A stretch of DNA of 64,000 bases from positions 1,265,001-1,329,000 of the forward strand of contig NZ_CP040021.1 of the NCBI RefSeq assembly GCF_005280275.1, written 5' to 3'. The notes beneath the pieces are model-generated. The model saw nothing but the letters and a program-made list of their open reading frames with translations, did not search any database and had not been told where the DNA came from. A program made the position numbers and the translations under genes. Source of the DNA: Salinivibrio kushneri. GTDB lineage: Bacteria > Pseudomonadota > Gammaproteobacteria > Enterobacterales > Vibrionaceae. Of the stretch, positions 2,314 through 62,804 are shown piece after piece; positions within the stretch are counted from its first letter, which is position 1, and each line of letters starts with the position of its first letter.

Positions 2314-2419
2314 ACGAAGAGCGCTTTGAATACAGTTGTTTCAAATCCATTAAACAAAGGATAATATCGTTAAAACAAACTGATAACATTTGAGTCTGCT
2401 TTGACGTATTGGAACAAAT

Positions 2420-3346
2420 ATGAAAATCAAACCGCTTCCGCCATTAAATAGCCTAGTTGCATTTGAAGCATCGGCACGACATTTGAGTTTTACGCTCGCA
2501 GCCGAGGAGTTGAATGTGACTCAAGGCGCAATTAGTCGACAAATTAGGCAATTAGAAGAGTACCTTGGTAAAGCGATTTTCACGCGTGCAAATCGCAACA
2601 TTCATCTCACCGCAACGGGACTTCAATATTACCAATCGATCAGTCAAGCCTTGCTTGATATCGCGCAAATCACGGGAGAAGTGAGAAAGTGGCAGGGTGA
2701 ACATAAGATAACAGTCGCAACGACCAATGCTATGGCTGCCTTATGGTTATTGCCCAAAGTTGCAGAATTCCAAAACTCGAACGATGAAATAGACATCCGT
2801 ATACTTGCGTCAGACAGTGTGTTGGATTTACGTCGGTTGGAATGCGACCTTGCGTTATTTTACTGTCGAACTCCGCCGGCCGATATGCACGTCACAACCC
2901 TCTTTTCTGAAGAGGTCTTTCCCGTATGTAGCCCTGCTTATTTAGACAAAATTGGAAATCCGTCAGAACCTGAGAACATTTTTAGCAATACATTGCTTTA
3001 CTTAGAAGAATCACAAAGAGACTGGGTGAATTGGGAGCAGTGGTTTTCGAGTGTTGGCCTACCTAATATCCAACCGCGCAACCGGATGAATATCAATAAT
3101 TATCCTATGCTGTTACAAGCAGCCATGAATGGCCAAGGAATCGCTTTGGCATGGGGCTCGTTAGTGGATGATTACCTTCAGCGCGGTGCACTTGTGAGAC
3201 CCGTTGAACATGTTCTTTCAACCCCTTCTAATTTTTTGATGTTGCAGCCGATGAAGCGAGGCGTTATTCCCTCGACAGTCAAGCAATTTAAACAATGGCT
3301 GCTTGAGCAGTTACCTAATGAAATTGGCGATCGTGGGCTCGTTTAA
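2420..3346 (+). CDS. LysR-family regulator, GcvA-like, probable controller of the BCCT/Rieske island
   Basis: A 308-residue LysR regulator. It opens with LPPLNSLVAFEASARHLSFT, followed by the recognition-helix stretch AAEELNVTQGAISRQIRQLE; both are hallmarks of the GcvA/AmpR group. The rest is a periplasmic-binding-like effector domain. It converges on the BCCT transporter gene and is the only regulator in the catabolic island, so control of that island is a reasonable inference. A 15-bp palindrome in the BCCT/oxygenase intergenic region is a candidate operator. The effector is unknown. Confidence 0.75.
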   Translation: MKIKPLPPLNSLVAFEASARHLSFTLAAEELNVTQGAISRQIRQLEEYLGKAIFTRANRNIHLTATGLQYYQSISQALLDIAQITGEVRKWQGEHKITVATTNAMAALWLLPKVAEFQNSNDEIDIRILASDSVLDLRRLECDLALFYCRTPPADMHVTTLFSEEVFPVCSPAYLDKIGNPSEPENIFSNTLLYLEESQRDWVNWEQWFSSVGLPNIQPRNRMNINNYPMLLQAAMNGQGIALAWGSLVDDYLQRGALVRPVEHVLSTPSNFLMLQPMKRGVIPSTVKQFKQWLLEQLPNEIGDRGLV

Positions 3347-3371
3347 GTAGGGGGAGCATTGACGATTCCAG

Positions 3372-3398
3372 CATAATAAAAGGGGGACATATGTCCCC
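3372..3398 (-). terminator. Terminator of the BCCT gene
   Basis: The palindrome GGGGACATATGTCCCC (3383-3398) is followed, on the minus strand, by CTTTTATTATG. That gives a stem plus T-rich tail in the right place to end the BCCT transcript. The plus strand has no comparable T-run. Confidence 0.65.
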
Positions 3399-3424
3399 GC
3401 TTTGCGAGTATGATTGTTTTACCA

Positions 3425-5146
3425 TTAACCTGGAATAGGTTTATCACGCAGTGGTGTGCTCGTGGAGTCACTTGACTGACTACGATCATTTTTACTATTC
3501 ACTAACGGTTCAACCGGACCATAAAGCGTATCAGCACGAGGGTGAACATGTTCCGGTAGCATCGCCCATGGCTTGGGTTCGCGGCGAATACTGTAAAACA
3601 ATGTCAGACTCATTATTGTAATGAAAATTGCAATGGGAAATCCAGCAATGATGGATGCGGTTTGCATTGCCTCTAAGCCACCAGCGTATAGCAATACACC
3701 TGCAAGAGCGGCAATTAAAATACCCCAAAGTACCCGGATCGATCTGGGTGGTTCGGGATGGCCGGCCGCATCAAGTGTGCAAAGCACCAGTGTCCCTGAG
3801 TCAGCAGAGGTGATAAAGTAAGTTGCTAATAATAGACAGGCCAATAGGCTTAGTACTTGGCCGAATACCCCGGAATCTAAGCTATCGAATAATGTGAATA
3901 ACGCACGAGTCGTATCATCTTGAGTTGCGCGAAGAATAGGGCCGCCAATAAACTCGCCTGGAGGTGATGTGCTTGTTTCTTGCGCAGACGCTACCTGGGT
4001 TTGATGAGCGATGCGCGCATCTTTCTCTACGCTTAAAGCCGCCCCTCCGAATATGGAAACCCAGAGAAACGTTATTAGTGTCGGAACAATTAAAGCGCCG
4101 CTTACGAGTTCGCGAACCGTACGTCCTTTGGATATTCGCGCGATAAACATGCCGACAAACGGTGCCCAAGTCATCCACCATGGCCAATAGTATGCCGTCC
4201 ACCAGTTTTGCCAATCGGTGTCATTTTGTGCATCGCTCCACAAACTCATTTGGACAATGTTATTGGCATAGAAGCCAAAAGTCTCAAGAAAAGTGTGAAG
4301 AATATAGCGTGTGGGGCCAACATAAAGCACCACCATTACGAGCAAGATAGACAACAGCATATTCCATAGGGAAAGGCGTCGGATGCCTTTGCTCACTCCT
4401 GATAAAACAGATGCAATGGCGCACGTGCACAAAATGACGATGATAAAAAGCTGGACACCTAAGCTGATATTGACTCCGAACGTTTGATTCAATCCGGAGT
4501 TTATTTGTATCACGCCCATACCGAGCGTTTGAGATATCCCAAAGGCGGTGACTGCCACCGTTAAAATGTCAACAGTATGACCGATCGGACCGTAAATTCT
4601 TTCACCGATCAAAGGGTATAATATGGATCGCAATGTAAATGGTAAATCTTTACGGTACGAGAAATAAGAGAGTGCCAATGCTACAATGATAAATACTGAC
4701 CAAGGGTGAAGCCCCCAATGGAAAAAAGTTAGTTGCATTGATGTGGTAGCTGCCTCGCTGGTCAATCCCTCACTAAAAGGGTTGTCGGCATAGTGCCACA
4801 TTGGTTCAGCGACAGACCAAAAAATCAAACCTATTCCCATACCGCCAGAAAACAACATCGAAATCCAGGATGCATAACTAAAATTCGGCCTTTCATCATC
4901 TTTACTTAATCTGACGTGACCAAATCGGCTGAGCATCAAGTAAAGAAGAAAACCCACCACTAGCGAAACAGCGCCAAGGTAAAACCACTTCATGTTATGT
5001 AACAGTATTCCAGAGACAGTCTCAAAGTACTGACCTGCTTTGTTAGCCAATATTGCGCAAAAAAGTACGAAGCCGATGACAACGACCTTAGACGCAATAG
5101 TCACGGTTGGATTAAGCCCTCTAAGTAACCCAGATTTTGCTCTCAT
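3425..5146 (-). CDS. BCCT-family sodium-coupled betaine/choline/carnitine transporter
   Basis: A 573-residue inner-membrane carrier with about 12 helices. The BCCT signature SGGMGIGLIFWSVAEP is at residues 100-115; in BetP this glycine-rich segment contributes to sodium binding, whereas sodium-independent CaiT departs from it. The tryptophan-rich aromatic box WPWWMTWAPFVG at 321-332 binds trimethylammonium groups in this family. The substrate should therefore be a quaternary ammonium or sulfonium compound. The gene is divergent from the Rieske oxygenase with 290 bp between, so it probably imports that enzyme's substrate. Confidence 0.9.
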   Translation of the reverse strand: MRAKSGLLRGLNPTVTIASKVVVIGFVLFCAILANKAGQYFETVSGILLHNMKWFYLGAVSLVVGFLLYLMLSRFGHVRLSKDDERPNFSYASWISMLFSGGMGIGLIFWSVAEPMWHYADNPFSEGLTSEAATTSMQLTFFHWGLHPWSVFIIVALALSYFSYRKDLPFTLRSILYPLIGERIYGPIGHTVDILTVAVTAFGISQTLGMGVIQINSGLNQTFGVNISLGVQLFIIVILCTCAIASVLSGVSKGIRRLSLWNMLLSILLVMVVLYVGPTRYILHTFLETFGFYANNIVQMSLWSDAQNDTDWQNWWTAYYWPWWMTWAPFVGMFIARISKGRTVRELVSGALIVPTLITFLWVSIFGGAALSVEKDARIAHQTQVASAQETSTSPPGEFIGGPILRATQDDTTRALFTLFDSLDSGVFGQVLSLLACLLLATYFITSADSGTLVLCTLDAAGHPEPPRSIRVLWGILIAALAGVLLYAGGLEAMQTASIIAGFPIAIFITIMSLTLFYSIRREPKPWAMLPEHVHPRADTLYGPVEPLVNSKNDRSQSSDSTSTPLRDKPIPG

Positions 5147-5224
5147 AATTAGTACGCCCCATTGCTTTTGTTTAATTATTGTTAAATTTGTAAAAACACT
5201 AGATGACTAAGAATAGGGTTTCAA

Positions 5225-5239
5225 CTGATTATTAATCAG
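5225..5239. promoter_or_regulatory. Palindromic candidate operator in the BCCT/Rieske divergent promoter
   Basis: CTGATTA-T-TAATCAG is a perfect 7-1-7 inverted repeat containing the T-N11-A core of LysR-type sites. It sits 79 bp from the transporter start and about 200 bp from the oxygenase start. A second, weaker inverted repeat GCAAC-N8-GTTGC lies at 5386-5403, about 34 bp before the oxygenase start. Assignment to the LysR gene at 2420 is inference. Confidence 0.5.
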
Positions 5240-5436
5240 GCACTCATGACTTTATGTAATGGGTAAGTAGAGCCTATCCAGTTAAAATTCTTCAAATTAT
5301 TATCGAATGATTAAAACTCATAGAGGCCCAGCAAAAAAGTCGTTTGTTTGTTTCATTTTTGTTAACCAGAATGACGGTGACTTACGCAACTAGGTGATGT
5401 TGCACTGGAGAAAATCGATCTCTTGGAGGAACAACC

Positions 5437-6624
5437 ATGAGCAATATTAACGAATCCATTATCCCTATTGAATTTTTTGACAAGGTTCTAAATCCAATCA
5501 GTGAAGCGACAGGAATGCCTAATCAAGCCTATGTAGATGAAGAATACTTCATTTTCGAGCGTGATGAGGTGTTTGGTAATACTTGGGTCTGTGTTGGGTT
5601 TGCGTCCGATTTGCCCAAAAATGGTTATGTAATGCCGATCGAATTCATGAACCTTCCTTTGCTAATGATGCGCAATCATAAAGGCGAGGTTCAGGTATTT
5701 CACAACGTATGCAGTCACCGTGGAATGAAGCTGGTGCATGAAGCAGGTGAAGTACAAGGCATGATTCGTTGCCCGTATCATTCTTGGACTTATGATCTTG
5801 ATGGAAAATTGAAAGGAACGCCACATATTGGCGGGATCGCTAAGCATAAAGATGAGCGCTTTCAGTGTGAAAATCATGGCCTGAAACCGGTTCGTTCCGC
5901 GATATGGATGGATATGGTCTTCGTCAACCTATCGGGAGACGCGAAAAACTTTGAAGACCATATTGCCCCGTTGGAGCAACGGTGGAAGTCTTTTGTCGGA
6001 GACGAAGGGTTCAGTCTGCTTCGTCGTGTGAATATGGGTGGCAATTTAGAGATAGAAGTCAACAGTAACTGGAAACTTGCAGTAGAAAACTATTGCGAAT
6101 CGTACCATTTACCTTGGGTTCACCCCAGTTTAAATAGTTACTCTCGCCTCGAAGATCACTACAACATCATGTTTTCAGATAACTTCGCAGGCCAGGGGAG
6201 TCTTGCTTATAACTTGGCTGACACCGCTGGAACACGGTTACCCAAGTTTCCAGGTTGGCCGAAGGACAAAGAGCGGCACGCGGAGTATGTTGCGATGTTT
6301 CCAAACGTCTTACTGGGCATACAAATTGATCATGCATTTGCCATGATGATTGAACCTATTTCTTCAGGCAAAACGGTTGAACATTTGCGTGTTTTCTATG
6401 TAGGAGATGAAGCAACCAATGACGAGTTTGCTGCTTGTCGTACGGCGACTGTCGAATCTTGGCGTGTTGTATTTGGTGAAGACATCGGTGCGGTGGAAGG
6501 GATGCAAAAAGGGCGACATTCCCCTGGATTTAGTGGCGGTGTGTTCTCCCCTGAAATGGATGTACCGACTCATTTCTTTCAATCTTGGCTGGCTAAGCAA
6601 GTAAAATCTGCGATGGAGCGGTAG
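5437..6624 (+). CDS. Rieske non-heme iron oxygenase, quaternary-amine type
   Basis: A 395-residue oxygenase alpha subunit. The Rieske [2Fe-2S] ligands are C92, H94, C112 and H115. The mononuclear iron site is H224, H229 and probably D349 (in EDIGAVEGMQKG). The residue bridging the two centres is E221 (ENYCESYH); naphthalene-type dioxygenases have Asp there, while the carnitine oxygenase CntA and glycine-betaine GbcA have Glu. With the BCCT carrier next door, a trimethylamine-type substrate is more likely than an aromatic ring. A strong GGAGG precedes the ATG. No beta subunit, ferredoxin or CntB/GbcB-type reductase is present; the likely electron donor is the rubredoxin reductase fusion two genes on. 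Confidence 0.85.
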   Translation: MSNINESIIPIEFFDKVLNPISEATGMPNQAYVDEEYFIFERDEVFGNTWVCVGFASDLPKNGYVMPIEFMNLPLLMMRNHKGEVQVFHNVCSHRGMKLVHEAGEVQGMIRCPYHSWTYDLDGKLKGTPHIGGIAKHKDERFQCENHGLKPVRSAIWMDMVFVNLSGDAKNFEDHIAPLEQRWKSFVGDEGFSLLRRVNMGGNLEIEVNSNWKLAVENYCESYHLPWVHPSLNSYSRLEDHYNIMFSDNFAGQGSLAYNLADTAGTRLPKFPGWPKDKERHAEYVAMFPNVLLGIQIDHAFAMMIEPISSGKTVEHLRVFYVGDEATNDEFAACRTATVESWRVVFGEDIGAVEGMQKGRHSPGFSGGVFSPEMDVPTHFFQSWLAKQVKSAMER

Positions 6625-6628
6625 AGGC

Positions 6629-8044
6629 ATGCATTATCTCAATTATATCGATGGTGATTGGTGTAACTCTGATCAAACAATGACCGTCATGAATCCAGGT
6701 AGCGGAGAAGCCTACGCAACAATTGCAAAAGCGAGTGTCACGGATGCAGACCGCGCGCTCGCTGCGGCACGACGGGTTGTGGAGCAAGGTTTACTCTCCG
6801 ACATCCGGCCCGCTGTAAGAACAGAATGGATGCTTAACGCTGCGCAAGCGATACGTGAGATCGCTGACGAAGGTGCATTAGTCGCGTGCCGGGAAAACGG
6901 TAAGTCTTTACAAGATGCGAAAGATGAGTTTATCGAATCGGCCCGTTATTTTGAATACTACGCAGGTATGGCCGATAAACTTGAGGGCTCGTCGATTCCG
7001 CTAGGTAGAGAATATGTCGACTTCACCCAATATGTCCCCCTGGGCGTGTCTGTCCAAATCGTCCCTTGGAATTTCCCCGTGTCGATTTGTGCTCGCTCCT
7101 TGGCCCCGGCGCTCGCAGCGGGTAATGCGGTCGTGATCAAATCACCTGAACTTTCGCCATTGGCGGTGACATTATTGGTTACGGCAGTAGAAAGTGCTGG
7201 TTTCCCAAAAGGTGCCGTGAATTTATTGTGCGGAACAGGTTCGATAGTGGGTAGCCATCTGGTAAAGCATGGTGAGACAGATCAAATCGTCTTCACCGGC
7301 TCTGTGCCGACAGGGAGGCGTATTCTGGAAGATGCTGCGTACCGAGCGACTCCATCGGTGATGGAATTGGGAGGGAAGTCGGCAGGAATTGTCCTACGTG
7401 ATGCTGATGTGAAAAAAGTACTACAAAGTGTTCGCTCCGGTATTTTTTTTAATTCAGGCCAAGTGTGCTCTGCCATGTCTCGTTTGGTCATTGATCAGGC
7501 ACGCTATACAGAGGTCGTTGATGCGGTGGTTACTCTGGCGCAGTCACTTACGATTGGAAGTGGTGAGAGTCAGTCGGATATCACACCGCTTATCTCGGCG
7601 GAACAGCAGTATAGCGTGCTTGACATGATTGAAGAGGCTAAACGGGAAGGGGCAAAGGTATTGACAGGTGGTTATGTGCCAGATCTCTCTGGCTATTTCA
7701 TCGCACCAACCATTATTGAGGCAACGCCTGATATGCGCATTGCACAGCAAGAAGTATTTGGACCGGTGCTAGTTGTGATGCCATTTGAGACAGAGCAAGA
7801 GGCGGTCGCTATTGCCAACGGCACAGACTTTGGGCTAGTGGCTGGTGTTTTTGGGGAAAGTCTCAGTCAAACCTTACGTGTGGCCCAAAAGCTTCGTGGT
7901 GGACAGGTGTACGTGAACGAGTGGTTTGCCGGTGGTGTTGAAACGCCCTTCGGTGGTGTTGGTTTATCTGGTTTTGGCCGAGAGAAAGGGCAAGAAGCAA
8001 TTTATAGCTACATGCAAACACGTAATATTGCCGTTCGTTTGTAG
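6629..8044 (+). CDS. NAD(P)-dependent aldehyde dehydrogenase, betaine-aldehyde/semialdehyde type
   Basis: A 471-residue cytosolic aldehyde dehydrogenase with PWNFP (N148), the general base E246 in MELGGK and the nucleophile C280 in NSGQVCSAMSRL. That last motif is closer to plant-type betaine/aminoaldehyde dehydrogenases than to BetB, judged from memory. The start is four bases after the oxygenase stop, so the two are co-translated. It should oxidise the aldehyde released by the oxygenase: betaine aldehyde if the substrate is choline, malic semialdehyde if it is carnitine, or another product. Confidence 0.85.
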   Translation: MHYLNYIDGDWCNSDQTMTVMNPGSGEAYATIAKASVTDADRALAAARRVVEQGLLSDIRPAVRTEWMLNAAQAIREIADEGALVACRENGKSLQDAKDEFIESARYFEYYAGMADKLEGSSIPLGREYVDFTQYVPLGVSVQIVPWNFPVSICARSLAPALAAGNAVVIKSPELSPLAVTLLVTAVESAGFPKGAVNLLCGTGSIVGSHLVKHGETDQIVFTGSVPTGRRILEDAAYRATPSVMELGGKSAGIVLRDADVKKVLQSVRSGIFFNSGQVCSAMSRLVIDQARYTEVVDAVVTLAQSLTIGSGESQSDITPLISAEQQYSVLDMIEEAKREGAKVLTGGYVPDLSGYFIAPTIIEATPDMRIAQQEVFGPVLVVMPFETEQEAVAIANGTDFGLVAGVFGESLSQTLRVAQKLRGGQVYVNEWFAGGVETPFGGVGLSGFGREKGQEAIYSYMQTRNIAVRL

Positions 8045-8200
8045 GTATTCAGGCCGTAGCCTTGTACATAGAGGTTCGCCCGAATCATGACGGTTATATA
8101 ATCAAAACCTTATAAAAAGTAGCGCAGTTTAACACTCACAAGAGCTGGTCCAGTCAGCTGTGAAACGCGAACACTGTAACGGAATAGTGGGAGTGAAAAG

Positions 8201-9604
8201 ATGAAAAAGTGGCTCTGTATTATTTGTGGCTTTATCTACGATGAAGCACAAGGTTGGCCTGCTGATGGTATTCCCCCCGGTACGGCGTGGGAGGACGTTC
8301 CCGAAAACTGGGTATGCCCTGACTGTTTGGTGGGGAAAGCGGATTTCGAAATGATCGAAATCACCGAAGATATCCCAGAAGAGTCAGTGTATGTAGACAC
8401 CGGTAGCTCGGAGAGAGAGGCAGAGGTATTGTCAGCCTTTGCTTCTTCTAGTGCTCCCATCGTTATTATTGGCAGTGGCCATAGTGGCTACCAACTCGCT
8501 GCTCAGCTCAGAGAGCATGATGCGAGTGTTGCGATAACTGTGTTCACGGCTGACGATGGTGCGCTGTACAGTAAACCCAGTCTTTCTAATGCACTAACGA
8601 TGGCAAAAGACTGTAACGCGCTACAAACAGCAAGTGCACTAGATTGGGAACAACGCTTAAACATTCGTGTTTATCCGAATACCTATGTTGAGCACATCGA
8701 TCGTAATACTAAGACGCTAGAAACCTCAATTGGTCATTACCGATACAGTCGCTTAGTGATTGCAACGGGGGCATCTCCGATTGAGACCTCTATTGATGGT
8801 GACTGTTCATACCTATTCCATGTCAACAATTTAAGTGACTATCGCCAAGTTCGCGCCCAACTCACGCATAAAAAGCGGATTGCAATTCTAGGAGACGGAT
8901 TAATCGGTTGCGAGTTTGCCAATGATCTTATCGGAAGTGGTTACGAAGTCACGGTCATAGGGCTGGGGGATTGGCCAATGTCGCGGATACTGCCTGAGAA
9001 AGTTGGCCAGGCTTTACAGAAAGGACTTGCTCGGCTGGGAGTAAGGTGGGAACTACAAGAGAGTATCAGGCGCATTGAGCCGGTGACAGAATCCAGTGCT
9101 CGCGTTTATTTGACCAGCGGAAAATACATTGATGCCGACTTAATCTTAAGTGCTGTCGGACTCAAGCCCAACGTAAGACTGGCCGAACAGGCTGGGTTAG
9201 AAGTGGGGCGCGGCATCAAAGTTAACCAGTATGGACAAACAAGTGATGAGCATATCTTCGCATTGGGAGACTGTTCAGAGACGAGTCAGGGTTGGCAACC
9301 TTACATTGCGCCAATTAATCAAATGGTGCCAGCGATTGCGGCGAACTTATTGGGTGATGACTCGCCAATAACTCTACAGCCGTCTCCAGTTATCGTAAAA
9401 ACGCCTGTCCTCCCGCTGAGTGTTTACCCTGTACCGATTAATAGGGAGGGACGCTGGGTTGTTGAGCCTCAAGGCAACGAACTCACCGCGAGGTTTTACT
9501 CTCCTGAGGGCGAGATATTGGGCTTTGCTTTATTGGGTAAGCATGTTCAGGCTCTGAGAGGACCTTGGCTACAGCAACTTTCACCTCAACAGTCCGTAGC
9601 ATAA
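8201..9604 (+). CDS. Rubredoxin fused to NAD(P)H:rubredoxin reductase
   Basis: A 467-residue fusion. Residues 1-52 are a rubredoxin with iron ligands C6, C9, C39 and C42; the second knuckle reads CPDCL instead of the usual CPxCG. A short acidic linker leads to a two-dinucleotide-domain flavoprotein of the AlkT/NorW type, with an FAD fold [15 protein letters not shown] near residue 87, an NAD fold [11 protein letters not shown] near 228 and a C-terminal FAD motif IFALGDCSE. It should pass electrons from NAD(P)H through FAD to its own iron centre. No alkane hydroxylase or nitric-oxide reductase is nearby, so the Rieske oxygenase is the natural acceptor, though this is inference. RBS GGGAGTGAAAAG. 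Confidence 0.88.
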
Positions 9605-9619
9605 AAGGGGCAATGAATA

Positions 9620-10936
9620 ATGGTACATCTACCAAACGATGATGACCAATGTGGTTGGTATCACGCACTGCCAAAAGTACCAGCCAGACCGTCTTTGGTT
9701 GGCGAGCAAACAGCTGATTATTTGATATTGGGCGCGGGGTTCGCGGGGTTGGCAATGGCAAGACGTGTTGCGACGCATAAGCCCAATTCACGCATAAAGC
9801 TGATAGATGCGCAGAGAGTTGGTCAGGGGGCCTCTGGGCGAAACTCCGGCTTCGTGATTGATTTGCCACACAAGTTTGCTTTAGAACACCCTGATCCTGA
9901 GCATAAACAGAAACTACTGGCGCTGAACCGCTCTGCTATTGCGCAGCTCGATCAACTTGTTAACCAATATAGTATTGACTGTCAATGGTCAGCAAAAGGG
10001 AAATATCAAGGTGCGGTTGGTGCTCGAGGTGAAGCCTACCTTGATCACTTTGAGCATCTGATGAAGGAGCTTGGTGAGCCATATTATCATGTTGATAACA
10101 AAGAGCTATCGGAAGTCCTTGGTACCCCTTACTACCGTCGCGCGATTTATACCCCGGGGAGTTATTTAGTTCAACCAGCGGCTCTTGTTCGTGGATTGTC
10201 GGAGAGTTTGCCAGACAATGTCTCGGTGCTTGAGAACTCACCAATTCGTCACTTAACCAAAGAGAATGGACAGTGGGTACTTTATGGACACGAAGGAGTG
10301 ATTAAATCACCAGTACTATTACTGGGAACCAGTATTTTTACGCGAGAATTCGGGTACTTAAAGAATCGCCTGTTGCCCGTCATGACATTTGCAAGTTGGA
10401 CGCGGCCGTTAACCGATGACGAAATGCGTAAGTACGGGGGAGAATTGGACTGGGGGCTAACGCCTGCTGATCATGCCGCAACAACGATGCGTATGACCGC
10501 AGATCGTCGCATCATGGTGCGCAATAGCTACAAACATACGCCCAAATATGGGCGTAGTATTAGTCATGCAATGAAAGCAAAAATAAGAAACGATCACAGG
10601 CAAGCGTTTTTATTACGTTACCCAGCACTAGAGGATGTTCCTTTTACTCACACATGGGGAGGCGTGTACGCGATTTCACGTAACTTTACTAACTTTTTCG
10701 GGCAATTGGATGAAGGCCTTTACGCCAGTGCTTGTGATAATGGTGTCGGTGTCGCTTGGGGAACGATTTCTGGGACGTTATTGGCTGATCATGCGGTGGG
10801 CGCAACATCTAACCAATTAGACGATATTAAATATGTTACCGGGATGCCATCGTTAAACCCACCCGAACCTTTTTTAGGGATAGGTGTTAAAAGCCGTATT
10901 CAGCTGGCCAAATGGCAGAGCAGGAGTGAACTATGA
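9620..10936 (+). CDS. FAD-dependent amine oxidoreductase (DAO superfamily)
   Basis: A 438-residue flavoprotein of the D-amino-acid oxidase/PuuB-like superfamily. The N-terminal dinucleotide fold is DYLILGAGFAGLAMARR (about residues 33-49) and is followed by ASGRNSGFV, a pattern typical of PuuB-like oxidases. The C-terminal flavin motif is ACDNGVGVAWGT. Relatives oxidise secondary amines and N-methyl or aminoalkyl groups. Lying 15 bp after the rubredoxin reductase and overlapping the cupin by 4 bp, it probably handles a later, less methylated amine of the same pathway. Substrate unknown. Confidence 0.8.
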   Translation: MVHLPNDDDQCGWYHALPKVPARPSLVGEQTADYLILGAGFAGLAMARRVATHKPNSRIKLIDAQRVGQGASGRNSGFVIDLPHKFALEHPDPEHKQKLLALNRSAIAQLDQLVNQYSIDCQWSAKGKYQGAVGARGEAYLDHFEHLMKELGEPYYHVDNKELSEVLGTPYYRRAIYTPGSYLVQPAALVRGLSESLPDNVSVLENSPIRHLTKENGQWVLYGHEGVIKSPVLLLGTSIFTREFGYLKNRLLPVMTFASWTRPLTDDEMRKYGGELDWGLTPADHAATTMRMTADRRIMVRNSYKHTPKYGRSISHAMKAKIRNDHRQAFLLRYPALEDVPFTHTWGGVYAISRNFTNFFGQLDEGLYASACDNGVGVAWGTISGTLLADHAVGATSNQLDDIKYVTGMPSLNPPEPFLGIGVKSRIQLAKWQSRSEL

Positions 10937-11283
10937 AACAAGTAAAGCTGATCGACAGTGAAAGTTTAGAGTTTAGTGTTCGAGGCGACTCACCAGGTAT
11001 GGCCTATGTCGCAAGAGCTGTTAGTTCGGAAATATCACCGCACATCGGTGTTGGTTTCGCAAAATGGGAAGGAGCAGTCGTGCCTTGGACGGTGTTATAT
11101 GACGAAGTCATTTTTGTTATCGAAGGCTGCTTCGAACTTACCGCCAATGGTCAGACGCATTTTGTAAGGCCCGGACAAATGCTTTGGATCCCGGAGGGGA
11201 CGGAACTGGTTTATGGTGGGGAGGCATTGTTTGGATATGTGGTCCATCCAGGTAATTGGAAGGCGTTACACGGTATTGAATAG
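10933..11283 (+). CDS. EutQ-like single-domain cupin
   Basis: A 116-residue cupin. The first cupin motif reads YDEVIFVIEGCFEL and the second RPGQMLWIPEGTEL. As in EutQ, the usual metal-binding HxH of motif 1 is missing (YDE in its place), so metal-dependent catalysis is doubtful. The start overlaps the stop of the flavoprotein in an ATGA arrangement, giving tight coupling. EutQ belongs to ethanolamine use, which hints that an aminoalcohol may occur in this pathway. The role here is unknown. Confidence 0.75.
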   Translation: MKQVKLIDSESLEFSVRGDSPGMAYVARAVSSEISPHIGVGFAKWEGAVVPWTVLYDEVIFVIEGCFELTANGQTHFVRPGQMLWIPEGTELVYGGEALFGYVVHPGNWKALHGIE

Positions 11284-11362
11284 CAGCCTCCGTGGCATTG
11301 ACGAAACCGTTTATGCACAAGTTCGATGTAAGGCGGTAATGCTCTCTGCGATCTGGGAAGCC

Positions 11363-11983
11363 TTAGTTGACTTCGACGTCATGTAGTGTCCGATATCCCG
11401 CCCAAACCCGTGTTGCTGCCGTCATTAAACAGGCTGCGCCAAAAACGCCGGCAATCCATGCCATGTATGTAGGGAAAAGACACATCAACACAAAGCTGGC
11501 GATGGTTTCCGTGCCTTCGGTGATCCCGCCGATGTAATACATCGACTTGTTGGCGTACACCGGGTTATCAATCTGGTGTTTGCTCGCCATTATCGCAAAC
11601 GCTAAAAAGCTTGCGCCTGTACCCATAAAGCAAAACAGCAGAAAGCTGGCGGCGATGGCGTTACTAGCGGGATCAGCCAGCGCAAAGCCAAAGGGAATGG
11701 CAGCGTAGAAGATAAAATCGAGGGTGATATCTAAAAAGCCCCCTGCGTCCGTGAGTCCTTGCTCGCGGGCGAGCGCGCCATCAAGGCCATCGAACAGTCG
11801 GTTAATGATAATGAACACAAGCGCCAGCCAATACACTTGTAGCGCCAGAGCGGGCACCGCCAGCAAGCCAATCAAAAAGCCCGATAGTGTGACGGTATCA
11901 GGTTTGATCCCCCATTTTGTGAGCTGCACCGCTGCCTGCTTCAATGGCCAACGGATCACGGCGATGGCATAGCGATCAAGCAT
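11363..11983 (-). CDS. ynjF: CDP-alcohol phosphatidyltransferase family membrane protein, YnjF-like
   Basis: A 206-residue, multi-helix inner-membrane protein. The CDP-alcohol phosphotransferase motif is FDGLDGALAREQG followed by GGFLDITLD, supplying the metal-binding aspartates. It is the last gene of the ynj-type operon and overlaps ynjD by 8 bp; E. coli ynjF is likewise linked to ynjBCD. The phospholipid product is unknown. The start follows a good AGGAGATACAAA. Confidence 0.85.
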   Translation of the reverse strand: MLDRYAIAVIRWPLKQAAVQLTKWGIKPDTVTLSGFLIGLLAVPALALQVYWLALVFIIINRLFDGLDGALAREQGLTDAGGFLDITLDFIFYAAIPFGFALADPASNAIAASFLLFCFMGTGASFLAFAIMASKHQIDNPVYANKSMYYIGGITEGTETIASFVLMCLFPTYMAWIAGVFGAACLMTAATRVWAGYRTLHDVEVN

Positions 11984-12647
11984 TTTGTATCTCCTCTTGC
12001 AGTACTGAGCTAGCTGGGCGTTTAGGCCAATTTAAACAGCGGCTCTGGTGCGCAATATCCTCGGCATCATGTGTCACAATCAGCGCGGGGATGTTGCGCT
12101 GCGCGATTTGCTCAAACACGAAAGCCCGAAAATCCCGTCGTAGCGGCTTATCCAGCTTACTAAAGGGTTCATCAAGCAAGATAGCATCGGGCGCGGCGAG
12201 TAATGCACGCAACACACTGATCCGCGCGCGCTGCCCGCCGGAGAGCTGGCTGGGGGCATAATCGGCAAACTCCGCTAAATTGACAGACCCTAATGTTGCG
12301 ATGGCCTGATCACGTTTTTGCGCTTTGCTCATCGATGAAGGCAGGGCAAAGGCCAAGTTTTGCCAGACGTTGAGATGCGGAAAGAGCAAATCATCTTGAA
12401 ACAAAATCCCGATACGGCGCTGCTCCGGCGGCAAGTGATCAAAGGGTTCACCATTTAAGGTTAGTTGGCCGCTGTAATGCATGGGCGGTTGAATGTGTCC
12501 TGCCAATACGCTCAGCAGGCTCGATTTTCCGCAGCCACTGGGACCCATTACGGTGAGTATTTCTCCCGGGGCGACCGAGAATGATAAATCACGCACCAAG
12601 CATTGCTCAGGCGCGTTTATGGTGAGTTGATTGACACACAGTGTCAT
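11976..12647 (-). CDS. ynjD: ABC transporter ATP-binding protein, YnjD-like
   Basis: About 223 residues from the ATG at 12647, which has an AGGAG upstream; the reading frame continues 30 codons further, but that extension lies inside ynjC and is not conserved-looking. Walker A is GPSGCGKSS, the signature LSGGQRARISVLRAL and Walker B AILLDEPFSKLD. It energises the YnjC permease. Its start lies 40 bases inside the end of ynjC, so the genes are translationally coupled. Confidence 0.88.
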   Translation of the reverse strand: MTLCVNQLTINAPEQCLVRDLSFSVAPGEILTVMGPSGCGKSSLLSVLAGHIQPPMHYSGQLTLNGEPFDHLPPEQRRIGILFQDDLLFPHLNVWQNLAFALPSSMSKAQKRDQAIATLGSVNLAEFADYAPSQLSGGQRARISVLRALLAAPDAILLDEPFSKLDKPLRRDFRAFVFEQIAQRNIPALIVTHDAEDIAHQSRCLNWPKRPASSVLQEEIQNA

Positions 12648-14316
12648 GGTGTTTCGCTCCTGAATAAGTCGGTGTTGATGTGGGTAAAAGGCGGCGCTCC
12701 GCAATACGGCTAAGCACGGTGGCCAAGGCGAAAACAATAAGGGGAAGCATCGCTTGCATCAGTCCATACAGGCCACTAATACGGCGATCGAGGCCGCTCG
12801 ATAAGCTAACTGCCTCGGTAGTGAGCGTATTAATGCGTCCCGCGCCCAACAACTGCGTTGGCAGATATTGCGCCAAACTGACACTCGCGCCGACCGCCCA
12901 CGCCAAGATGATCGCAGGCAAAAGCAGCGGTAGTTTAACGCGCCACCATGCGAGTGTCGCACTGACACCGAGGCTCCTGGCGGTTTGCATGAGCCGCATA
13001 TCAAATTGCTGCCACGGCCCATCGAGCGCGAGATACACATAAGGAAACGCGAAAAAGATATGCGACCAGATAGTAGCTGGCACGTGCCACTGGCCGGGGA
13101 GGCTGTACACCGCCACCTGAATACCGAACAAGATAGAGAGTTGCGGAACCAATAATGGAATGGCGATGACGGCTCTCGGCACCGAGCGTCGCTGATTGGT
13201 TGAACGCTCCAAACACCCGATGGCAAATAACAAGGCGACACTGGCGCTGATCACCGCGAGAACAATGCTGTTTCCCACCAATGACCATACATAGCTCAGT
13301 TCTTGTTCCCAAAACCGTAAGCTATATCGACTGGGCAGCCAATCGGGAAATGACCAACGCAGCGCGAATGACCACACCAGCAACACAGGCATAATCGCAA
13401 GGGGAGTGATAAACACTGGCCACCAGAGTAACTTGCCAGGCAGCCATGCGTGGCGGCGGCCCGTGTATTGCCAGCGATTGAGACATTGGCAGCCAAGCCA
13501 CTCCAAAAAGCGGAATAGCAATAACGCTAAGCCACATAGGGCAAATAACAGCAATGCCCCAGCTGAGGCTCTGGGCAATAACGCCAAATCAGGGTCATTG
13601 AACCATTGCCATACCAATACCGCATAAGTGGGCGGCGTATTGGGCCCGAGGATCATCGCCACATCAACCACCGACAGACTGTAGGCGATGACGGCAAAAA
13701 TCGGGAACCGCATTTTGGCCAGCCAAAGCGGAAGAATGACTTTTAGCCAGGTTGCGGTGCGGTTATACCCGAGGCTGGTTGATACCATGGTCAGTCGAGC
13801 GACATCAATTTGACGCAGCACTGACAGGCTCATCAATAATAAAAATGGGGTCTCTTTTAGCGTTAGCGCCAAGGTGAGCCCGATAACATAAGGATCTTGT
13901 ACTAACGCCCAAGTTACAGGTTTCTCACCGAGAAGGGGACTTAACAGGCGAAACAGCCAACCCGAGGGGGAAAGCAGTAAAACCAGACCAATCGCAAAGG
14001 CGACGTGTGGCAATGCCAGTAGCGCAGGCAAGCGCGTACTGATCTTTTGCCAAATGGGCGTGTGCCAAGCGGCCTGTAAAATTATAAAGCTAAATGCCAC
14101 CGCGAGCAGGCTACTGCCCAACCCCGAGATGAGCGTCAGCTGAATTGATTGCCAAAGTGCCGGCCATGCCATGACTTGGTGCCAGCCGCTAAAATTGGCC
14201 TCTGTCAGCCCCAGGGTGGGCAAGAACGCAAAGGCACTCGCGAGCAAGCCGCCGACCCCTGGCAACAAGGGCAGGCAGCATACCGTTAGGGTGATGGCAA
14301 ACAGCAAACGTGCCAT
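12607..14316 (-). CDS. ynjC: ABC transporter permease, fused two-domain, YnjC-like
   Basis: A 569-residue inner-membrane protein made of two homologous permease halves of about 270-280 residues, each with about six helices. The EAA-type loops are visible near MVSTSLGYNRTATWLKVILP and TARSLGVSATLAWWRVKLP. This fused layout resembles ThiP and YnjC. It lies between the binding protein and the ATPase. The ligand is unknown; thiamine-like, sulfate-like or iron-like cargo are all possible for this class. Confidence 0.87.
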   Translation of the reverse strand: MARLLFAITLTVCCLPLLPGVGGLLASAFAFLPTLGLTEANFSGWHQVMAWPALWQSIQLTLISGLGSSLLAVAFSFIILQAAWHTPIWQKISTRLPALLALPHVAFAIGLVLLLSPSGWLFRLLSPLLGEKPVTWALVQDPYVIGLTLALTLKETPFLLLMSLSVLRQIDVARLTMVSTSLGYNRTATWLKVILPLWLAKMRFPIFAVIAYSLSVVDVAMILGPNTPPTYAVLVWQWFNDPDLALLPRASAGALLLFALCGLALLLFRFLEWLGCQCLNRWQYTGRRHAWLPGKLLWWPVFITPLAIMPVLLVWSFALRWSFPDWLPSRYSLRFWEQELSYVWSLVGNSIVLAVISASVALLFAIGCLERSTNQRRSVPRAVIAIPLLVPQLSILFGIQVAVYSLPGQWHVPATIWSHIFFAFPYVYLALDGPWQQFDMRLMQTARSLGVSATLAWWRVKLPLLLPAIILAWAVGASVSLAQYLPTQLLGAGRINTLTTEAVSLSSGLDRRISGLYGLMQAMLPLIVFALATVLSRIAERRLLPTSTPTYSGAKHHDTVCQSTHHKRA

Positions 14317-15496: not shown

Positions 15497-17632
15497 TTAG
15501 TGACGCATCCAACGGTGATATTTTTCGACCCATTTCAGCAGCTTCTCGGGGGCATGGGCTTGCTTCCACATCCCGGCAGTATACTTCACCGCTTCACTCA
15601 TGGTGGGATAAGGGTGGACGGTGCCAAGGATCTTATTCAGCCCAAGCCCGTGCCGCATGGCGAGAGTAAATTCTGCGAGCAAGTCGCCCGCATGTTCGCC
15701 AACAATAGTTACCCCTAGAATGGTATCTTTTCCTTTCGGTGTCAGCACCTTAATAAAACCATGATCATTGCCATCAGCAATCGCGCGATCCAGATCATCA
15801 ATGCCGTAATAGGTCACTTCCACCTCTTGCTGATTGGCCTTGGCTTCTTTTTCATTGATACCCACGCGCGCGACTTCTGGCGAGGTGTAGGTCGCGGCAG
15901 GCATCACTGAATAATCAGCACGAAAGCGCTTAAATTGACCAAATAGCGCATTCACGGCGGCATACCATGCTTGATGGGCACTGGCGTGGGTGAGCTGAAA
16001 CGGCCCCGCGACGTCGCCCACCGCGTAAATATTGGGATAGGCGGTTTGCAGATACTCATTGACTTGAATTGTGCCACGCTCGGTCACTGGAATATCGAGC
16101 TTTTCGAGACCAAAGCCTTTGGTGTTAGCGCTGCGCCCTAACGCGACCAGTACTGCATCAAACGCGACGGATTTCTCCCCATCAGGACCGTCGAGTAACG
16201 CGACTTGTTGATCATTACGATGCTCAAATGCTTTCACCTTATGCTGAGTTAAAATCGTGACACCGTCACGCTCTAACGCCTGCTCAACCAATTGGGCGGC
16301 ATCTTTATCTTCACGGCTGAGAAGTTGGTCGGCCATTTCTGCGAGCGTTACTTGGCTGCCTAGACACGCAAAACTTTGCGCCAATTCCGCGCCAATGGGA
16401 CCCCCGCCTAACACCAATAACCGTGGTGGCAGTTGAGCCAAAGACCAAATCGTATCCGAGGTGTAATGCGTGACCTCAGCCAAACCGGGAATCGGGGGCA
16501 ACATAGGGCGCGCGCCTGTGGCAATCACGATGTTGCGGGTAGTGAGGCGTTCGCCATTCACCTCGACTTCCCATGGCGAGACGATGTGTGCTTCGCCTTG
16601 CACGCACTCCACGCCGAGCTTGGTGTAACGCTCGACCGAATCGTGAGGCTCAATGTGGGTAATCACTTGCTTAACCCGCGCCATGACTGCCGGAAAATCA
16701 ACAGATGGCGCTTGGGTATGAATGCCAAACGCCTTGGCCTTGCCAATTTCTCGCATGGTTTTCGCTGCGCGGATCAGCGCTTTAGAAGGCACACAGCCCG
16801 TGTTTAGGCAATCACCTCCCATCGAACCTTTTTCGACTAGCGTGACTTTTGCTTTCACCACGGCTGCGATATAGCTCGACACCAGACCGCCTGCGCCGGC
16901 ACCAATGACCACCATATTGCGGTCGAACTGACCAGGCTTGCTCCAACCTTGATAGCGTTTACGACGCGTGATCCACGCCATAACCCACTTTGCCAGCAGT
17001 GGGAAGACACCCAGTAATGCGAGAGAGCCAAGCACCGAGGGTGACACCACGTCGCCGAGTGTGTCGATTTGGGCGAGTTGAGTCCCTGCATTCACGTAGA
17101 CTGCGGTACCCGGCAACATCCCGAGTTGACTGACCCAATAGAAGGTGCGGGTTTTGAATGAGGTTAGCCCCATCACTAGGTTAATCAGAAAAAACGGGAA
17201 AATCGGGATCAGGCGCAGGGTCAACAGATACAAGCTGCCGTCTTTCTCGATACCACGATTAATGACGTCGAGCTTATTACCGAACTTGGCCTGGACCCAG
17301 TCGCGCAACATAAAGCGACTCACCAAGAAGGCGAGGGTGGCGCCAATCGAGCTGGCAAAGGAGACCAACACCAATGCCCACCAAAAGCCAAACAGTGCAG
17401 CGCCCAATAAGCTCGCCACCGCCGCTCCCGGTAGCGACAATGCTGTCATCACCACATAGCCGACAAAAAACACCAGACTTGCGGTGGTCGCGTTTTCGAT
17501 AATGTAATCGTTTAATGCCGCTTGTTGTGCTTTGGCGTTTTCAAGCGTCAACCATTGGCTGAGATCAAAACTAAACCACAGGGCAATAAGCGCAACAATC
17601 ACTAAACCAAGCAGGATTTTTTTTACTGGCAT
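15497..17632 (-). CDS. TVP38/DedA-like membrane domain fused to a class I pyridine nucleotide-disulfide oxidoreductase
   Basis: About 711 residues from the ATG at 17632. The first ~220 residues are a multi-helix TVP38/SNARE-associated domain (LSLPGAAVASLLGAALFGF, then LRLIPIFPFFLINLVMGL). The rest is a flavoprotein with an FAD fold VVIGAGAGGLVSSYIAA, a redox disulfide CLNTGC and a C-terminal HPYPTMSEAV supplying the His-Glu pair. The C-terminal cysteine pair of true mercuric reductase is absent, so mercury reduction is unlikely. It is the first gene of the ynj-type operon. A membrane-tethered disulfide reductase serving the periplasm or an imported ligand is inference. Confidence 0.82.
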   Translation of the reverse strand: MPVKKILLGLVIVALIALWFSFDLSQWLTLENAKAQQAALNDYIIENATTASLVFFVGYVVMTALSLPGAAVASLLGAALFGFWWALVLVSFASSIGATLAFLVSRFMLRDWVQAKFGNKLDVINRGIEKDGSLYLLTLRLIPIFPFFLINLVMGLTSFKTRTFYWVSQLGMLPGTAVYVNAGTQLAQIDTLGDVVSPSVLGSLALLGVFPLLAKWVMAWITRRKRYQGWSKPGQFDRNMVVIGAGAGGLVSSYIAAVVKAKVTLVEKGSMGGDCLNTGCVPSKALIRAAKTMREIGKAKAFGIHTQAPSVDFPAVMARVKQVITHIEPHDSVERYTKLGVECVQGEAHIVSPWEVEVNGERLTTRNIVIATGARPMLPPIPGLAEVTHYTSDTIWSLAQLPPRLLVLGGGPIGAELAQSFACLGSQVTLAEMADQLLSREDKDAAQLVEQALERDGVTILTQHKVKAFEHRNDQQVALLDGPDGEKSVAFDAVLVALGRSANTKGFGLEKLDIPVTERGTIQVNEYLQTAYPNIYAVGDVAGPFQLTHASAHQAWYAAVNALFGQFKRFRADYSVMPAATYTSPEVARVGINEKEAKANQQEVEVTYYGIDDLDRAIADGNDHGFIKVLTPKGKDTILGVTIVGEHAGDLLAEFTLAMRHGLGLNKILGTVHPYPTMSEAVKYTAGMWKQAHAPEKLLKWVEKYHRWMRH

Positions 17633-17832
17633 ACTATGTCTCGTCAGGTAGCAAATAGGGCCCAGATATAACATTAGGTGCTTTAGACTAATTAACTGGC
17701 TGATTTTTTTAGTTGCATTAAGAAACTGTGCTCTTAATCGTACCTAGGATCAGACCTGTCCGATCGCGAGAGACTTTCAAATAGAGTGTGAAAAACGTGT
17801 GGTTGATGCTTTTTTGAGCGAAAAGCGAGGCG

Positions 17833-62537: not shown

Positions 62538-62614
62538 TGGTGCGTCCGGGCAGACTCGAACTGCCGACCCCCGCCATGTCAAGGCGGTACTCTAACCAAC
62601 TGAGCTACGGACGC
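62538..62614 (-). tRNA. tRNA-Val (GAC), third in the array
   Basis: 77 nt including an encoded CCA. The acceptor stem is GCGTCCG/CGGACGC. The anticodon loop TTGACAT gives anticodon GAC, which reads GUC/GUU valine codons. It resembles E. coli valV/valW. Confidence 0.95.
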
Positions 62615-62627
62615 GAATTTCAAAATG

Positions 62628-62704
62628 TGGTGCGTCTGAGTGGACTCGAACCACCGACTTCCACCATGTCAAGGTGACACTCTAACCAACTGAGTTACAG
62701 ACGC
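62628..62704 (-). tRNA. tRNA-Val (GAC), second in the array
   Basis: 77 nt with encoded CCA and the same TTGACAT anticodon loop. It differs from its two neighbours at paired positions: acceptor GCGTCTG/CAGACGC and anticodon stem CACC/GGTG. The changes are compensatory, so the gene should be functional. Confidence 0.93.
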
Positions 62705-62727
62705 ATAGTTTAATTTTTCAAGCAACG

Positions 62728-62804
62728 TGGTGCGTCCGAGTGGACTCGAACCACCGACCCCCGCCATGTCAAGGCGATACTCTAACCAGCTGAGCTACGG
62801 ACGC
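62728..62804 (-). tRNA. tRNA-Val (GAC), first in the array
   Basis: 77 nt with encoded CCA, acceptor GCGTCCG/CGGACGC and anticodon GAC. It is the promoter-proximal copy. Confidence 0.95.

Follow-up and report, generated by a model that had tools for sequence, protein, structure and literature searches.

A compact run of genes in the genome of Salinivibrio kushneri raises the question of which compound it serves to break down, and by what chemistry. The window analysed here is a stretch of 64,000 nucleotides (contig NZ_CP040021.1, positions 1,265,001 to 1,329,000) from a genome of 3.44 Mb in two contigs. A sequence-only reading of this DNA had described six linked genes as an amine-oxidation island, in which import, oxygenation, aldehyde oxidation and flavin-dependent oxidation of an amine follow one another. 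As set out below, the cassette is a compact and conserved block that was horizontally acquired as a whole. Given its gene content, insertion, conservation and cofactor residues, there is about an even chance that it imports and breaks down a betaine-like compound by a rubredoxin-fed, CntA-like C-N cleavage, assisted by an aldehyde dehydrogenase (ALDH) and a flavoenzyme of the DAO family.

Each of the six open reading frames is found in the sequence, with the spacings claimed. A BCCT carrier of 573 residues (3425-5146, minus strand; Pfam BCCT PF02028, 576 bits), with the motifs GMGIG and WPWWMTW, diverges from the other five genes, which all lie on the plus strand. These encode a Rieske oxygenase of 395 residues (5437-6624; Pfam Ring_hydroxyl_A and Rieske), an ALDH of 471 residues (6629-8044; Pfam Aldedh, 493 bits), a rubredoxin fused to a rubredoxin reductase (8201-9604, 467 residues), a predicted FAD-dependent amine oxidase or dehydrogenase of 438 residues (9620-10936; Pfam DAO PF01266, 140 bits) and an EutQ-type cupin of 116 residues (10933-11283; Pfam EutQ PF06249, 61 bits, above the Pfam cut-off). 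Calculated from the coordinates, the gaps from oxygenase to cupin are 4, 156, 15 and -4 bp. The gene content of the proposed island thus holds, while its extent does not: a LysR-type regulator gene (2420-3346, plus strand; Pfam HTH_1 and LysR_substrate) is also part of the cassette, making seven genes. Its GcvA-like product (NCBIfam GcvA, 283 bits for a cut-off of 288) is the putative cassette regulator.

Comparison by blastn with six other genomes of the genus delimits an inserted segment of ~9.08 kb (2314-11391) that carries the whole cassette. The flanking aligned blocks are only 36-47 bases apart in all six, with edges at window positions 2313 (2324 in one genome) and 11392-11397, and the DNA from LysR to cupin is therefore one insertion. 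It begins directly after punR (1414-2313), and its right end lies within a CDP-alcohol phosphatidyltransferase gene (11363-11983, minus strand), in the final 29 bases (3' end) of that gene. At E 1e-100, punR is found in 7/8 genomes of the genus, the window's own included; the oxygenase is not found in the seven other genomes at E 0.001. The G+C content is 0.467 in the segment and 0.502 in the rest of the window. Comparison of the 140-150 bases at its two ends gave no shared exact words beyond 8 bases in length, and the seven genes fill the segment, with no integrase among frames of at least 90 residues.

The distribution of the cassette was determined by scanning GTDB contigs with two conserved peptide patterns and keeping the best 80 of 131 stretches, so that only close relatives are counted. 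Loci with more than 3.5 kb before and more than 6.5 kb after the oxygenase (67/80) were treated as complete; several of the 13 loci set aside still carry the whole cassette. When LysR and BCCT genes are counted anywhere in the locus at identities of at least 50% and at least 48%, respectively, the complete loci contain ALDH (67), DAO (67), rubredoxin (66), reductase (65), cupin (65), LysR (65) and BCCT (58) parts, and all eight parts with the oxygenase occur together in 54 of them. In this gene-neighbourhood search, ALDH, rubredoxin, reductase, DAO and cupin follow the oxygenase in a row, on the same strand and within 7 kb, in 64/67 loci. The LysR gene lies upstream in 60 loci and downstream in 5, while for the carrier gene these numbers are 46 and 12; some Pseudomonas loci have the carrier downstream, or just a more distant one (about 35%). 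Across the complete loci, protein identities are lowest for the reductase part (43%) and highest for the rubredoxin part (89%).

Genera that have the cassette include Vibrio, Photobacterium, Oceanimonas, Oceanisphaera, Zobellella, Pseudoalteromonas, Marinobacter, Rahnella, Halomonas, Acinetobacter, Psychrobacter, Colwellia, Pseudomonas and Massilia. Because it recurs in so many genera, the gene set is more than a chance assembly, and an island peculiar to this one genome, as had been supposed, is ruled out by its recurrence across Gammaproteobacteria. Oxygenase relatives were found at E 1e-40 in 16/369 genomes sampled over the whole class, the window's own included; the best of the other 15 reaches 604 bits, compared with 906 for the window's own protein. 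One genome (L005, L015 and L024) has a broken cassette, with interrupted oxygenase and ALDH frames and a carrier unmatched within the stretch.

The oxygenase is the part from which most can be read. Judged by its residues, it is the alpha subunit of a Rieske non-haem iron oxygenase with both metal sites complete: the Rieske ligands C92, H94, C112 and H115 and the iron ligands H224, H229 and D349 are kept in 84/84 rows, a count that includes a few genomes twice (e.g., L022 and L031). The filtered row set A2 comprises 25/83 cassette oxygenases (92% identity filter) and three paralogues. Among solved proteins, CntA is the closest in sequence (residues 24-367, E 7e-35), the next following at 5e-24. 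CntA also comes first when the structural model (pLDDT 88, pTM 0.89) is searched with Foldseek (best chain E 1.4e-30, TM 0.73/0.80). Residues Y219, E221, H224, H229 and D349 align with CntA Y203, E205, H208, H213 and an Asp, presumably the third iron ligand; PMC7948474 names Y203 and E205, while the other CntA positions were counted off the alignment. The bridging Glu that had been claimed for this enzyme is E221, aligned with E205 and present in 84/84 rows, and the nearest solved relative is indeed a quaternary-amine enzyme.

The position of CntA Y203, the residue that meets the trimethylammonium group, is occupied by Tyr in 79 and Phe in 5 of the 84 rows, and never by Asn. According to PMC7948474, Tyr or Phe marks group Va (acting on carnitine, choline and benzalkonium), whereas Asn marks group Vb (demethylation of glycine betaine and stachydrine). 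By this aromatic-residue rule the oxygenase appears Va-like, and release of an aldehyde from the carbon beside the nitrogen would be expected. Use of glycine betaine through GbcA was considered and rejected, the score on the GbcA model (NCBIfam NF058607) being too low at 140 bits for a cut-off of 670; none of 114 class-sample genomes reaches that cut-off. A search for CntA in 185 class genomes gave a sole match at E 1e-60, a second Rieske gene of the window's own genome.

Electrons for the oxygenase probably come from the fused protein, to judge from its domains and position. The product of 8201-9604 is, by its Pfam matches (Rubredoxin, Pyr_redox_2 and Rbx_binding), a rubredoxin (residues 1-50) joined to a rubredoxin reductase (about 84-460) that includes FAD and NAD domains and a C-terminal rubredoxin-binding domain. 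The four rubredoxin cysteines (6, 9, 39 and 42) are present in 80/80 rows, and in complete loci the rubredoxin always lies 2.6-2.8 kb after the oxygenase start. In a locus of Marinobacter sp. X15-166B (L046), reductase and cupin are missing, and what stands between ALDH and DAO is a rubredoxin alone. CntA is reduced via CntB (PMC7948474), and a passage of PMC12093977 gives GbcB as the partner of GbcA. No CntB-type reductase was found in the window's genome with one CntB-like query, which matched solely a flavohaemoprotein (E 5.6e-10; 580 bits to the flavohaemoprotein model). The query, from locus L071, has ferredoxin and NAD-binding domains and lies beside a gene matching solved CntA at E 3e-245. 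Relatives of it occur in 2/80 loci, namely L071 itself, beside the CntA gene, and L083 (Pseudomonas marincola), where a vanillate-demethylase-type Rieske gene and the reductase gene (L083:6394-8402) lie directly upstream of the cassette.

The second Rieske gene of the window's genome (locus L025, G000:C1:2650000-2668000, about 4505-12700) encodes a protein 33% identical to CntA with Ser at the Y203 place. Its neighbours are a choline-dehydrogenase-like gene, an ALDH gene, a class II aldolase gene and a gene for a choline-type binding protein. The same locus includes genes for a rubredoxin standing by itself (74% identical over 54 residues) and for a rubredoxin reductase (39%); since the second Rieske gene was not found in 119 relatives at E 1e-100, this rubredoxin link has no comparative support.

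The kinds of enzyme downstream of the oxygenase largely agree with what had been proposed. The ALDH keeps its catalytic residues E246 and C280 in 83/83 rows and is an aldehyde dehydrogenase as claimed, yet it falls far under the cut-off of all 25 families shown, of 43 matched; the best of them is betaine-aldehyde dehydrogenase TIGR01804 (397 bits, cut-off 668.6). The nearest proteins to the modelled fold of the DAO protein (row set A3, 34/40 filtered rows, 81 before the filter) share 13-19% identity with it and include glycine oxidase (Foldseek E 1.8e-22), L-proline dehydrogenase, dimethylglycine dehydrogenase, amino acid deaminase and sarcosine oxidase. Because of this kinship in fold, it likely oxidises an amine, which supports its earlier designation as an amine oxidase. 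The claim of an EutQ-like cupin is correct for the domain type but not for EutQ proper: the protein passes the Pfam cut-off, yet reaches just 63 bits for a cut-off of 193 on the NCBIfam EutQ model, of which only positions 122-232 (full length 233) are matched. As no histidine is invariant in 19 aligned sequences (row set A4 holds 18/32 filtered cupins), it seems unlikely to act as an ordinary metal cupin.

The carrier scores above the general BCCT cut-off (TIGR00842, 460 vs 408 bits), but below those of the specific models, glycine-betaine BCCT NF047988 (549 bits, cut-off 650) and choline BetT (433 bits). After its best solved match come choline (two of the best), glycine-betaine, dimethylsulfoniopropionate (DMSP) and carnitine carriers. 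As the solved matches span trimethylamine to carnitine carriers, the carrier points to a small onium compound and no further.

The kinds of enzyme proposed for import, oxygenation, aldehyde oxidation and flavin-dependent oxidation are, therefore, borne out, with carrier, oxygenase, ALDH and DAO protein fitting by family, residues and fold. In the preferred explanation, the LysR protein would sense the substrate or a product, and the carrier would take up a small betaine-like zwitterion with a quaternary ammonium group. Electrons from NAD(P)H would pass through the fused rubredoxin reductase and the rubredoxin to the oxygenase, which would hydroxylate the carbon beside the positive nitrogen, so that the C-N bond is cut as by CntA and an aldehyde is released. 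The ALDH would convert this aldehyde into an acid, the DAO-family flavoenzyme would oxidise the remaining amine by methyl removal or deamination, and the cupin may assist a late step.

Several observations weigh against this explanation. The cysteine pair C206/C209 of CntA is absent in 84/84 rows, as the S222 place is always Ser or Ala and the L225 place always Leu; such a pair is given in a passage of PMC10952381 as a mark of group V Rieske oxygenases, and by that rule the protein sequence is not that of a typical group V enzyme. Close to the iron site, residues 226-228 and 230-232 of the model have pLDDT below 50, and stachydrine demethylase stands close behind CntA by fold (1.3e-28 vs 1.4e-30). 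One complete locus (L066) is devoid of both rubredoxin and reductase, and neither was found at E 1e-3 in the stretches searched around 16 more distant oxygenase genes (30-61% identity); for these reasons, rubredoxin is not proven as the donor. Furthermore, the best solved match of the carrier is a trimethylamine transporter, and a sequence search at E 1e-5 brought up no solved relative of the DAO protein, whose model is only fair (pLDDT 79).

Some of these points would suit an oxygenase that demethylates, like the group Vb enzymes GbcA or Stc2, and releases formaldehyde, with the DAO enzyme continuing demethylation or deamination and the ALDH acting after it on a semialdehyde, as happens in the degradation of pipecolate or in proline-type pathways. 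The near equality of stachydrine demethylase and CntA in fold is in line with this, as are the fold of the DAO protein, nearest to glycine oxidase and to the proline, dimethylglycine and sarcosine enzymes, and its weak resemblance to L-pipecolate oxidase AmaA (NCBIfam 115 bits, cut-off 600). A pyrroline/piperideine-2-carboxylate reductase gene standing with distant relatives of the oxygenase and ALDH, described below, would also fit. Nevertheless, Vb demethylases have Asn where 84/84 rows have an aromatic residue, and CntA is clearly nearer than Stc2 by sequence (E 7e-35 vs 8e-23), which makes demethylation unlikely. The kinship with CntA could instead suggest a carnitine or gamma-butyrobetaine cassette, whose oxygenase frees trimethylamine and a semialdehyde for the ALDH, the other genes being accessory. 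The part of PMC6514802 that deals with carnitine homologues in fact reads a divergent carrier, an oxygenase and an ALDH in four Psychrobacter strains as part of a carnitine cluster; three of these strains are among the cassette loci (L057, L061 and L062, the last by strain name). However, Acinetobacter silvestris (L071) has a true CntA gene, a succinate-semialdehyde-dehydrogenase-like ALDH and a CntB-like reductase (L071:1239-4942) a few kb upstream of its cassette. Since both coexist there, the cassette and the CntA system are not the same thing. The window oxygenase is just 25% identical to the CntA of L071, a carnitine cassette would leave the DAO enzyme without evident use, and CntB is missing, so that this alternative is improbable.

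An aromatic substrate is suggested by the Pfam name Ring_hydroxyl_A and by weak matches to anthranilate and benzoate dioxygenases; its ring, perhaps that of homarine, trigonelline or another N-methylpyridinium acid, would be dihydroxylated and, once opened, processed by ALDH and DAO. A zwitterionic pyridinium would fit a betaine carrier, and rubredoxin is reported in part of PMC5209329 as a partner of some aromatic dioxygenases. Yet the sequence matches to aromatic dioxygenases (E 5e-24 or weaker) fall far short of that to CntA, and Pfam and NCBIfam detect no small beta subunit or ring-cleavage dioxygenase among the seven genes; such a substrate is quite improbable. It is very improbable that the cassette oxidises choline, with a choline monooxygenase of the Rieske type and a betaine-aldehyde dehydrogenase yielding glycine betaine, even if group Va takes in choline monooxygenases (PMC7948474), the best NCBIfam match of the ALDH is of that name and two of the best solved BCCT matches carry choline: the ALDH is far under the family cut-off (397 vs 669 bits), the carrier scores higher on the glycine-betaine than on the choline model, both under cut-off, DAO and cupin would have no role, and the genome has its choline-type binding protein and choline-dehydrogenase-like gene elsewhere (L025).

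The most improbable of the alternatives is a sulfonium substrate linked to DMSP and to the lyase DddP in some genomes. A DddP-like M24 gene does lie in 21/80 loci of several genera (L033, L034, L038, L045, L046, L054, L058, L067, L072, L075, L078, L080, L083, L085, L087, L094, L096, L099, L101, L102 and L106), Acinetobacter and Pseudomonas among them, with copies outside Acinetobacter 36-79% identical to the Acinetobacter one. The Oceanimonas copy exceeds the NCBIfam DddP cut-off (629.5 vs 600). Against this, the other four of five copies scanned fall below it, and may not act on DMSP. No such gene was found at E 1e-20 in the stretch searched of the remaining 59/80 loci, nor in the window's genome, and DddP is not known to need an oxygenase or an amine oxidase.

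Cleavage of a betaine-like compound, the preferred explanation, can also be put in a bolder form, in which a cyclic betaine, either proline betaine or a relative with a six-membered ring, is the substrate and the cassette is an undescribed, mobile pathway built on a rubredoxin-driven quaternary-amine Rieske oxygenase. Oxygenation beside the nitrogen would then open the ring and give the semialdehyde of a dimethylamino acid, from which the ALDH would make the dicarboxylic acid; the DAO enzyme would finally demethylate this to glutamate or 2-aminoadipate. This form is doubtful. If true, it would give a common logic to the DAO enzyme, the ALDH and the ketimine reductase of distant relatives. The neighbourhoods of the 16 distant loci, in which high-G+C stretches yielded false frames, are mixed. 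Two of them (L127 and L128, one genus), the others giving nothing that names a substrate, have a short operon of LysR, oxygenase, ALDH and then a pyrroline/piperideine-2-carboxylate reductase gene (345 bits for a cut-off of 322 in L128; the L127 copy is 88% identical to it). Their oxygenase and ALDH relatives are 53-54% and 54% identical, and no DAO or cupin homologue was found within the stretch. A homologue of the same reductase is seen further off from the oxygenase in L130.

How far the cassette differs from known systems can be judged gene by gene. With the carnitine system CntA/CntB and the CAR module (Acinetobacter; plasmid pP32BP2) it shares the BCCT carrier, LysR regulator, Rieske oxygenase and ALDH, whereas it has a rubredoxin-reductase fusion instead of CntB, additionally contains DAO and cupin, and lacks a malate dehydrogenase gene and the C206/C209 pair. 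In the carnitine system, CntA works with CntB, a reductase with flavin and ferredoxin, and its products from carnitine are trimethylamine and malic semialdehyde. With the Rhodococcus o-xylene and naphthalene dioxygenases it has in common a rubredoxin associated with a Rieske oxygenase, as given in a passage of PMC5209329; unlike in those systems, which act on aromatic substrates, its rubredoxin is fused to the reductase and its oxygenase is nearest to a quaternary-amine enzyme. GbcA/GbcB likewise includes a Rieske oxygenase, but GbcA has Asn at the Y203 place (PMC7948474), where the cassette enzyme has an aromatic residue, and the cassette has no GbcB-type reductase.

Two further likenesses concern single steps. 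Amine oxidation by DAO-fold enzymes follows the Rieske step in the Dgc/Sox route too, and the rubredoxin and rubredoxin reductase AlkG/AlkT of alkane hydroxylase form an electron chain of the same type, although the cassette has a Rieske oxygenase and no AlkB membrane hydroxylase. The cassette combines enzymes of familiar kinds, and this combination did not turn up in the open-licence PMC literature, where none of the papers listed describes the whole gene set. The view that no pathway with this exact gene set had been described is uncontradicted there, with the qualification that three of the genes had already been mentioned in Psychrobacter; the main text of PMC6514802 does not contain the word 'rubredoxin', and its carnitine-homologue passages are without the other cassette genes.

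Further features of the window include a terminator-like stem-loop directly 3' of the BCCT gene (3383-3398, minus strand), which is weak because the region has 14 terminator-like sites against a mean of 8.6 in shuffles. A promoter scan of the region gave 9 sites, fewer than in shuffles (14.1). Outside the cassette, the genes for PunR and PunC, both above their NCBIfam cut-offs, lie to the left of LysR, and to the right of the cupin, on the opposite strand, the CDP-alcohol phosphatidyltransferase gene is followed by an ABC carrier. Elsewhere, a gene at 15497-17674 (minus strand) encodes a protein of 725 residues in which a VTT membrane domain (84-198) is joined to a flavoprotein resembling mercuric reductase (253-698), and three consecutive tRNA-Val (gac) genes lie at 62538-62804 (minus strand).

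Carbon and nitrogen are stored abundantly as betaines in marine and soil environments and in animals, and some routes of betaine breakdown are still unassigned. With a compact cassette spread over many gammaproteobacterial genera, one more route of this kind would become readable from genomes. If the preferred explanation is true, rubredoxin, known mainly from the oxidation of alkanes and of some aromatic compounds, would also be placed before a quaternary-amine oxygenase.

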